DNA of 64,000 bases from Tuberibacillus calidus DSM 17572. GTDB lineage: Bacteria > Bacillota > Bacilli > Bacillales > Sporolactobacillaceae. Shown in pieces: positions 2,928 through 48,284 of this stretch (the stretch's first letter is position 1; every line of letters starts with the position of its first letter). The notes below the pieces were generated by a model. The model saw only the letters and a list, made by a program, of their open reading frames with translations, had not been told where the DNA came from and did no database searches. Where the stretch lies: contig NZ_AUMM01000018.1 of the NCBI RefSeq assembly GCF_000430685.1, positions 1-64,000 on the forward strand, in the 5' to 3' direction. Made by a program: the position numbers and the translations under genes.

Positions 2928-5249
2928 ATGACTCCTTCATGGCTATCACTTATACCTTTTCTCATCGTTATTCCAGTTTCCATTATCACAAAGCAAGTGC
3001 AGCCAGGGTTATTCGTGGCTTTGCTCGTTGGCAGCTACCTTGTTGAGCCAAGTCTTCTCGGCGGCATAAAAAAGTTCTTGGACTATATTGTACACACGAC
3101 GATTGTGTCGAATAATATACGAATTATTATTTTCCTTTATGGTTTCGCTGGGCTGATTAACATTATTAAAATGGCCGGCGGGATTAAAGGATTTGTGGAC
3201 CTTGTCAGCAAAAAGGTGAAAACGAAAAGAAGTGCCATGGCCCTGACATGGCTTTCCACGATCGGGACCTTCAGCGATCCGGATTTCCGCATTGTTACCA
3301 TTGCGCCAATCATGAAAGCGCTGAAAGATCGCTTAAAAATGTCGGCGCGCCGCATCGGCATCGTCATCGAAGTAACTTCTAATCCCGTTGTCGCGCTTGT
3401 ACCGATCGCGACAGGGTTTGTCGGTTACATGGTGAGCATCATTAACACAGCGCTCAAGCAGGCCGGCATTCACCGAGCGCCTTACCTGACTTATGTTGAA
3501 AGCATCCCGTTTAACTTTTTTTCCTTTGCGATTCTTGGAGTCGGGATTTATTACACTTTCTTTATGCATCGGAAACATGAAAAAAAATATCATTTTACCG
3601 AAAATGAAAAAGCTGAAGCATTAAACAATGCCCGAAAATCGAGCGAGACGATCCCTCAGCTGGTTACACCGCCTCCGCAGCCGTCCTATGCCATGCTAAA
3701 TGAAATGGCCCAAGAGCCGATGCCATTCCAATCCATCACAACAAATGCCGCCCCGCCGTTTAGTCCCGTCCAAAGCGGGGAATTATCCAATCTCGCTGAC
3801 ATCTCACTGAACGGTACAGGAGCCAAGCCGATTGTGGGCGGCGCATCTGATCGATTGCCAAAAAATAATGACCAACCAGTTTTAGGGCAAATGGGTGCGA
3901 ATACTGCTAACCCCACAGGATCTAACGGCAACGCCCTTTCACTAAACGGGGGGCTGCCGTCGAACCCAAACGGCATGGCGGGACAGCCCAACGTCAACAC
4001 TCTTCCGCAGAATGGGCTGCAACAGCCCCAACCAAACGCCATGTCGCCTCAGCCGGTCGGTAACACGCCTAACGGGGTGCAACTATCAAACGCAAACGGC
4101 ATGGCGGGACAACCCAACGTCAACACTCTTCCGCCGAATGGGCCGCAACTGTCCCAACCAAACGCCATGTCGCCTCAGCCGGCCGGTAACACGCCTAGCG
4201 GGGTGCAACTTTCAAACGCAAACGGCATGGCGGGACAACCCAACGTCAACACTCTTCCGCCGAATGGGCCGCAATCATCCTTTTCAAGCGAGCTATCGGA
4301 ACAACCTGTTGGTAACGCAAACCCACCGGCTGAACCATCGATGACAAATCCAAATCATGTGCCTTTACCTGACACATCGAATGCGTCCCTGTCCGCTACC
4401 ACTATGTCAGCCGTTACGACAGCGCACGACCATGTTTTTAATGAAGAGTATGCCCGTAACTTAGATGCCTCTTTATTGAACAGCGGACATGTTGAAAAAA
4501 TGAACAACCCGAATGAAAAACAAGGTGAGGAAGATCTACAGCAACCGAATAAAGATTATGACGAAAAAACCCCATCACGGCCGTGGAATTTGATTTTGCC
4601 GTTAGGAACCGTTTTGCTCCTCACCCTCTTTTTGAGTTGGTGGGACGGCCACTTTAAGGCAAACACTTTCTTTGGTGCTTTTATAAAGGTGGATGCCCTT
4701 GGGGTGATGCTTGAAGCCTTACTCATTACCTTGATTTTGACCATCATCTTTTTTATGGTACAAAAATTTCCGGTGGCCAAAATTGTCACCCACTTCATAA
4801 ATGGTGGCAATCAGTTGATGTCCGTCATTGTGCTTTTGGCACTCATATGGGGGGTTTCAGCCGTATCCGAAGACCTTGGTTTTTCAAAATACATTACCAT
4901 GCATGTCGAAAACTGGATCCCGCCTAGTCTTGTCGCACCGGTTTTATTCCTGCTTGGTGCTGTCATATCGTATTTTATTGGGTCTTCGTGGGGGACGTGG
5001 GGACTTCTCATGCCTCTAGGCATCATGCTCGCCCATCACGCCAATGCGAACATTTTTCTCGTCATCGGCGCCGTCTTTGCCAGCGGAACTTTCGGGGCCT
5101 TTGCTTCCCCATTAAGCGATAACACCGTAACACTGTGTACCATACTGGATTTGCCCGTCATTGAGTATGCTAAATCAAAACTCGTTCCGGCGCTCATTGC
5201 TGCTGGCATCGCCTGTGTATTATTTATCGGCTTCTCATTTATCCTTTAA
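2928..5249 (+). CDS. NhaC-family Na+/H+ antiporter with a long central repeat-rich insert
   Basis: Encodes 773 residues, far longer than I would expect for an NhaC antiporter (about 450-520). Residues 1-215 and from about 550 onward are two hydrophobic blocks typical of the family, with STIGTFSDPDFR in the first half and SSWGTWGLLMPLGIMLAHH and ASPLSDNTV in the second. Between them, about residues 215-545 are hydrophilic and rich in Asn, Pro, Gln and Gly, containing near-perfect 42-residue repeats. The insert sits at the loop joining the two halves. The reading frame is continuous across it, so this is not a broken gene. The ATG follows a GCGGGTG ribosome site. It is monocistronic as far as can be seen. 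Confidence 0.85.
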   Translation: MTPSWLSLIPFLIVIPVSIITKQVQPGLFVALLVGSYLVEPSLLGGIKKFLDYIVHTTIVSNNIRIIIFLYGFAGLINIIKMAGGIKGFVDLVSKKVKTKRSAMALTWLSTIGTFSDPDFRIVTIAPIMKALKDRLKMSARRIGIVIEVTSNPVVALVPIATGFVGYMVSIINTALKQAGIHRAPYLTYVESIPFNFFSFAILGVGIYYTFFMHRKHEKKYHFTENEKAEALNNARKSSETIPQLVTPPPQPSYAMLNEMAQEPMPFQSITTNAAPPFSPVQSGELSNLADISLNGTGAKPIVGGASDRLPKNNDQPVLGQMGANTANPTGSNGNALSLNGGLPSNPNGMAGQPNVNTLPQNGLQQPQPNAMSPQPVGNTPNGVQLSNANGMAGQPNVNTLPPNGPQLSQPNAMSPQPAGNTPSGVQLSNANGMAGQPNVNTLPPNGPQSSFSSELSEQPVGNANPPAEPSMTNPNHVPLPDTSNASLSATTMSAVTTAHDHVFNEEYARNLDASLLNSGHVEKMNNPNEKQGEEDLQQPNKDYDEKTPSRPWNLILPLGTVLLLTLFLSWWDGHFKANTFFGAFIKVDALGVMLEALLITLILTIIFFMVQKFPVAKIVTHFINGGNQLMSVIVLLALIWGVSAVSEDLGFSKYITMHVENWIPPSLVAPVLFLLGAVISYFIGSSWGTWGLLMPLGIMLAHHANANIFLVIGAVFASGTFGAFASPLSDNTVTLCTILDLPVIEYAKSKLVPALIAAGIACVLFIGFSFIL
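3969..4290 (+). repeat. 126-bp in-frame tandem repeat, about 2.5 copies
   Basis: Units begin at 3969, 4095 and 4221, exactly 126 bases apart, each opening with aacggcatggcgggaca. They encode 42-residue repeats starting NGMAGQPNVNTLP and containing QPNAMSPQP. The third copy diverges after about 60 bases. Because the unit length is a multiple of three, copy-number change would keep the antiporter in frame. Confidence 0.95.
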
Positions 5250-7181: not shown

Positions 7182-7892
7182 GTGTTTTCGCTAATCGGGA
7201 GCCTCACATACTTGATTAAGGAGTTCTGGCTTTTTGTCTCTTACGTCAAAAACAACGCCTTCCCGCAACCGCTTCCGGAAGACGAAGAACGCGAATGCCT
7301 TGAACGGATGGCTGCGGGCGATAAAGCCGCCCGGGATAAACTGATTGAACATAACTTAAGGCTAGTGGCCCACATTGTCAAGAAGTTCGAGAACACGAAA
7401 GAAGACAGCGAAGATTTAATCTCCATCGGCACAATCGGTTTGATCAAGGCGATCGAAAGCTATGCACCAGGCAAGGGAACGAAACTGGCGACTTATGCGG
7501 CGCGCTGTATAGAAAACGAAATTCTCATGCATCTGAGAAGTTTGAAAAAAACTCGGAAAGACATATCCCTGAATGACCCGATTGGTCAAGATAAGGAAGG
7601 GAACGAAATTTCACTCATCGATGTTCTGAAATCCAAAAATAAGGATATCGTCGATGAGATCTCCTTAAAAATGGAGAAAAAGAAAATATATGAGTACTTA
7701 CACATTCTTGATGACCGGGAAAAAGAGGTCGTTATTGCCCGCTTCGGGTTGGATAACCACAAAGAATTGACGCAGCGAGAAATTGCGAAAATGCTCAACA
7801 TCTCTCGCAGTTACGTCTCACGGATTGAAAAGCGCGCCTTGATGAAGCTATTTAATGAATTTTACCGGCAGCCAAATCGAAAAAGTCGATAA
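7182..7892 (+). CDS. sigK: Pro-sigma-K, late mother-cell sporulation sigma factor
   Basis: Encodes 236 residues. Residues 1-20 form the hydrophobic pro-sequence ending FVS, and the mature protein should begin at Tyr21 in [11 protein letters not shown], as in B. subtilis, where SpoIVFB cuts. Region 2 ([42 protein letters not shown]) and region 4 ([38 protein letters not shown]) are complete. The gene is continuous; the skin element that splits it in B. subtilis 168 is absent. The GTG start follows GGAGGTG. It directs late coat and mother-cell lysis genes. I expect sigma-E control but found no convincing promoter. Confidence 0.97.
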
Positions 7893-44646: not shown

Positions 44647-44853
44647 AAAAACATACAGAGAGTCCCAATAGTGCCGTATTCGACTCGAGTTTTGAACCCG
44701 CCTCAGGCAGGTGGGTGCCCTGTTCTTTTCTTCATACGTCCACTCTTTGGAGGCCTGTATTCCGAAAAGAAACGTCCGGGCTCCCTTTCAAATGGTGTTC
44801 GGTCAAAACATGTAGTCTGCTACGGTCACATCAGGACTCTCTGCTTGATTTGT
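44647..44853 (-). ncRNA. ssrS: 6S RNA
   Basis: On the minus strand a transcript of about 205 bases would begin near 44853 and contains CAGAGAGTCC followed by TGATGTG, matching the 5' end of B. subtilis 6S-1 (bsrA) as I recall it. The closing stem pairs CAGAGAGTCC (44834-44843) with GGGACTCTCTG (44656-44666), then a T6 run. The middle can form a long rod with internal bulges, including a GC hairpin on the 3' side. It lies next to aspS, as bsrA does in B. subtilis. 6S RNA mimics an open promoter and sequesters sigma-A RNA polymerase. A consensus-like promoter sits at the right distance upstream. Confidence 0.88.
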
Positions 44854-47989: not shown

Positions 47990-48284
47990 TCCTCCAAAAT
48001 AAAAATCCCTTGTTCGCGAACGGAACAAGGGACGAGTTTACCCGTGGTGCCACCCTTATTGGAATTTTGAATAAAATTCCCACTTCACCATTAACGCCGG
48101 TTGCGCGGTTTTTCCTACTCACCAAAAGGCAATCCCAGGCTTTCAGAAAAACACCTCGGAAGTGTCCTTCATCGGCCGTCAGCGCAGGAATGCTTTCAGC
48201 CACGGCATTCCCTCTCTGGGCGTGCGGTCCCCGACTACTCTCTTCGTCATCGGTGATGACTCTCCAATTTAACATTCTCGGTTT
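47990..48284 (-). promoter_or_regulatory. T-box leader of hisS-aspS
   Basis: On the minus strand the T-box sequence AAGGGTGGCACCACGGG (48041-48057) precedes a perfect 10-bp terminator stem TCCCTTGTTC/GAACAAGGGA (48006-48032) with a T-run. In Stem I a CAC triplet (48162-48164) sits before TTCCGAGGTG, the place that corresponds to GCC in the alaS leader; CAC encodes His. So tRNA-His is the likely effector for both genes. Confidence 0.92.

Follow-up and report, generated by a model that had tools for sequence, protein, structure and literature searches.

Bacterial carriers are usually compact. Near the start of the window analyzed here (64,000 nucleotides of Tuberibacillus calidus DSM 17572, positions 1 to 64,000 of contig NZ_AUMM01000018.1), one transporter gene encodes two carrier halves that are separated by a long, partly repetitive segment. 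This raises the question of whether the segment is an insert that splits the carrier or a native part of it, and whether it has a role of its own. The features on which the argument rests are the following, in window coordinates:

2928..5249, + strand: transporter gene, a single open frame of 773 aa with an ATG start and 0 internal stops
2928..3569, + strand: N-terminal carrier half, residues 1-214, with 66-74% identity to orthologues and confident AlphaFold2 helices
3570..4568, + strand: inter-half loop, residues 215-547 (333 residues), delimited by alignment; residues 241-545 predicted disordered, with pLDDT below 50
3963..4274, + strand: tandem array of 126 bp (42 aa) in 2.5 copies, residues 346-449, found by Tandem Repeats Finder
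4437..4466, + strand: motif FNEEYARNLD, residues 504-513, conserved and lying in a low-confidence predicted helix (496-517)
4506..4535, + strand: NPNEKQGEED, the older C-terminal end of the loop, common to Geobacillus-type relatives
4569..5249, + strand: C-terminal carrier half, residues 548-773 plus stop codon, with a PF03553 match

The product of this gene is an intact secondary transporter of the PF03553/IT-superfamily kind. The N-terminal half aligns with the N-terminal halves of relatives, and a Pfam profile search matches residues 551-767 to PF03553 (Na_H_antiporter) with 89.4 bits, above the curated cut-off of 23. Judged by its family, the carrier is probably Na+- or H+-coupled. A sequence-only reading of this DNA had described an intact two-half carrier with a low-complexity segment of unusual length between the halves, and both observations are borne out. 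Among the matches listed from 397 surveyed genomes of this order, the open frame of the T. calidus gene is the longest (788 codons from stop to stop, the next being 627).

The halves are mostly modeled by AlphaFold2 at pLDDT 75-96, and VIA-align spans both of them in alignments with NaS1 (8y5u; Z 25.5 over 421 residues), ArsB (10tp; Z 23.4 over 387 residues), and MleN (Z 21.6 over 405 residues). These alignments identify the core as an intact IT-superfamily carrier; as modeled, the joined halves carry the IT-superfamily fold. The top Foldseek match was the MleN model 9a59, with no match reaching E 0.001, and a phmmer search against solved structures returned no match.

At the level of the family name, the earlier label NhaC proves too specific. 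The protein scores 18.6 bits against the NhaC equivalog TIGR00931 (TC 2.A.35), for which the cut-off is 370, and it also falls short of the equivalogs for Tet(35) (73.2 versus 750 bits) and ArcD (25.5 versus 650 bits). Its relatives likewise remain below all three cut-offs, and "PF03553-family transporter" is the most suitable name for the protein. Bacillus subtilis MleN (YqkI) and Bacillus firmus NhaC (TC 2.A.35) are of the same broad carrier kind, but no long loop has been described for either; the B. firmus protein has a length of 462 aa (PMC9408914). Literature searches on the NhaC cytoplasmic loop and on MleN-MetQ found no paper.

Upstream of the transporter gene, Rfam gave no nearby match to a riboswitch or other leader RNA, and promoter-like sites near the gene are no more numerous than in shuffles. 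Divergent from it lies a 30-codon ORF at 2619-2711 on the minus strand (MSYAGGFGAGFALIVVLFILLIIVGAAYVW), which matches PF09680 (YjcZ_2) with 47.8 bits and would encode a tiny membrane protein easily missed in gene lists. The 169-aa ORF at 587-1096 on the plus strand shows a weak zinc-ribbon match, below cut-off, and its place ahead of the CitMHS gene is conserved in both Pullulanibacillus and Scopulibacillus. A SigK-like sigma factor is encoded in one uninterrupted frame at 7182-7892 (plus strand), with 89% identity to the Scopulibacillus gene from the same neighborhood. Farther along the window, a 6S RNA (44658-44840, minus strand) and a T-box leader (48025-48259, minus strand) both score above the Rfam gathering scores.

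The origin of the loop becomes apparent from its relatives. We compared 95 distinct proteins, taken from whole genomes and from the genomes of named species, and observe a linker at the same place in 95 of 95, ranging from 24 to 333 aa. Since at least 24 residues are always there, the net gain of the T. calidus protein over short-loop relatives is about 300 residues. Linkers of 24-33 aa characterize a large group comprising Alkalihalobacillus, Aquibacillus, Fictibacillus, and a paralogue from T. calidus itself, while linkers of 31-91 aa are found in Geobacillus, Anoxybacillus, Aneurinibacillus, Desulfosporosinus, and a few Bacillus. Six orthologues of the same family have linkers of 110-167 aa, and the T. 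calidus loop is the extreme of this graded, approximately tenfold expansion of a native linker. What had been taken for an insert splitting the core is instead such an expanded linker, as the graded series in relatives indicates.

On a tree built on the carrier core without the loop, T. calidus and the six orthologues with loops of 110-167 aa form a clade (100/100), and the loop-size classes cluster, requiring 6 changes versus 26.8 with shuffled labels. Gene order supports the orthology: the ORF at 587, the CitMHS transporter, and the transporter gene adjoin in Pullulanibacillus camelliae and Scopulibacillus darangshiensis as they do in T. calidus, and in S. darangshiensis SigK comes next, again matching the T. 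calidus order. The orthologues from these two species and from Sporolactobacillus putidus resemble the T. calidus protein in the core (up to 82% identity), the EEYAR motif, and a loop that is predicted or likely to be disordered, but their loops measure 145-167 aa, contain more charged residues, and have no tandem array. The short-loop paralogue in the same genome (G000:C6:54137-55540) and Bacillaceae proteins with loops of 27-33 aa share the carrier core, at about 50% identity per half, as well as the linker position, yet their linkers of about 30 aa have neither the EEYAR motif nor repeats. Close to the Sporolactobacillus putidus orthologue, at L057:7675-8349, we also observe a NISPFGRKYRRS-like repeat array that is open in several frames on both strands.

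The T. calidus loop is of low complexity, with P, N, S, A, Q, G, and L as abundant residues, and the AlphaFold2 model of an orthologue with a 145-aa loop resembles it, residues 224-359 being below pLDDT 50. NPNExQGEE at the old loop end, common to Geobacillus-type relatives, indicates that the loop grew in place, and a genome-wide search for a foreign source, at both the DNA and the protein level, found no second copy. The positively charged stretch HRKHEKKYH, which follows the membrane segment preceding the loop, suggests together with homologous folds that the loop is probably cytoplasmic, although across the family only about half of the proteins have a net positive loop start. A structural analogue is provided by human Oca2, an IT-type fold in which the loop joining two inverse repeats is likewise predicted to be cytoplasmic (PMC10372470). 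The long disordered region of Oca2, with its sorting motifs, is however N-terminal and not inter-repeat.

Within the loop, the 42-residue, frame-keeping repeats noted earlier are real but amount to only 2.5 units and 104 of the 333 residues, about a third, the other 229 being non-repeat. The array is the sole one reported by Tandem Repeats Finder (95% matches, score 561), and a weak period of 66 within it corresponds to two related half-units. The longest exact repeat in the loop extends over 63 bp, whereas none of 300 codon shuffles gave one above 15 bp, which places the repeats far beyond chance. Between copies 1 and 2 there are 9 mismatches in 126 positions, approximately seven of them amino acid changing and two silent by codon reading. 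Across the 60 bp compared, the partial copy 3 matches copy 2 exactly, which makes a change in copy number by slippage or unequal crossing-over plausible. Among the repeat residues we find no charged and no aromatic ones, with N and Q together making up 33% and P 19%, and the orthologues hold no 126-bp-like array, only short matches of period 7 to 12. Given this composition, the mostly amino acid-changing variation, and the absence of the array from orthologues, the repeats look like a near-neutral, inert spacer. A condensation-prone domain, as had also been proposed, is unlikely for repeats without aromatic or charged residues. We discounted two ORFs that overlap the repeat in different frames (4012-4344, plus strand; 3686-4042, minus strand) as a side effect of its scarcity of stop codons.

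The conserved motif lies outside the array. Its general form, [YF]xEEY[AS]R followed by H or N, sits 30-43 residues before the second half in 7 of 7 long-loop proteins, and EEY[AS]R occurs in 0 of 88 shorter-loop proteins. The best common 10-residue block of the long loops reaches 43/60, compared with at most 28 in 60 shuffles, although the seven proteins are fairly related and common ancestry inflates conservation, so that the shuffle test alone is no proof of selection. Outside this block the long loops share almost nothing, and it is the contrast with the diverged remainder of the same loops that points to selection and marks the motif as a putatively constrained element. A genome-wide search for its coding pattern matched the transporter gene and nothing else. 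In both AlphaFold2 models the motif falls in an isolated helix (residues 496-517 in T. calidus and 322-333 in the orthologue) with pLDDT below 50; docking is thus not predicted by the models, and such a low-confidence helix is as expected for a motif that folds on binding.

The explanation that we consider best, and to which we give about an even chance, is that a native loop grew in steps into a disordered tether that displays a docking motif, a view close to the tether idea of the sequence-only reading. The connection between the two inverted halves, probably on the cytoplasmic side, would have been extended step by step into a disordered segment, a flexible spacer displaying the EEYAR motif, and this motif may form a short helix on binding. 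Its target could be a cytoplasmic partner or the carrier's own cytoplasmic face, by which activity or location would be tuned. The 126-bp array would represent a recent extension, made by slippage or unequal crossing-over and tolerated by the spacer. In a more specific form, [YF]xEEY[AS]RHLD would serve the long-loop clade as a motif dedicated to docking, a helix whose folding is coupled to binding and which sits on a disordered tether between IT-fold inverted halves; it would recruit a cytoplasmic regulator or gate the carrier, and T. calidus would lengthen its tether by in-frame repeats. We regard this elaboration as speculative and rather unlikely in its entirety.

A close rival to the docking tether, tentative but to be taken seriously, is that the loop simply tolerates changes in length and was drawn out by slippage and drift, with no role beyond joining the halves. 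Loop length and sequence do vary freely among relatives, the differences between repeat copies are near-neutral and the orthologues have no repeats, and the relatives with loops of 24-33 aa evidently manage without a long one. Recent common ancestry could even account for the motif, present as it is in just seven fairly related proteins. Drift fits less well with one block being kept in every long-loop protein, well beyond shuffles, while the rest of the loop diverged, and with loops of 110-167 aa staying open and in frame in six genomes.

Two further readings concern the repeats alone. The array could act as a length-variable regulator (an in-frame VNTR), its unit number varying among cells or isolates and so tuning the transporter. 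The 126-bp unit preserves the frame and the identity of copies 2 and 3 is what a recent duplication would leave, but with just 2.5 copies, and no array in any orthologue, we consider this improbable. The phase variation suggested earlier is, in a strict on/off sense, ruled out by the unit length: 126 bp is divisible by 3 and the array lies inside the coding region, so that changes in unit number alter length and provide no off-switch. That the array was misbuilt during assembly appears very improbable. The genome is a draft in 81 contigs, and identical copies of at least 60 bp are a known hazard of short-read assembly; however, copies 1 and 2 differ at nine sites in an open frame, and the gene sits inside a 73-kb contig, with no other copy in the genome. 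Such an error, which had been named as a possible refutation, could make the unit number wrong but could not touch the non-repeat residues of the loop, and the open frame, the kept gene order, and the long loops of orthologues argue that the loop itself is real.

Across this family, the linker lengthens from about 30 to 333 residues around a core that remains highly similar, and the motif appears only with long loops. The family thereby supplies a ready-made gradation of loop lengths with which to ask whether transport in bacteria is regulated by disordered loops. As a case it is modest but open to testing, and not a new kind of system; the motif in it is of more interest than the repeats.
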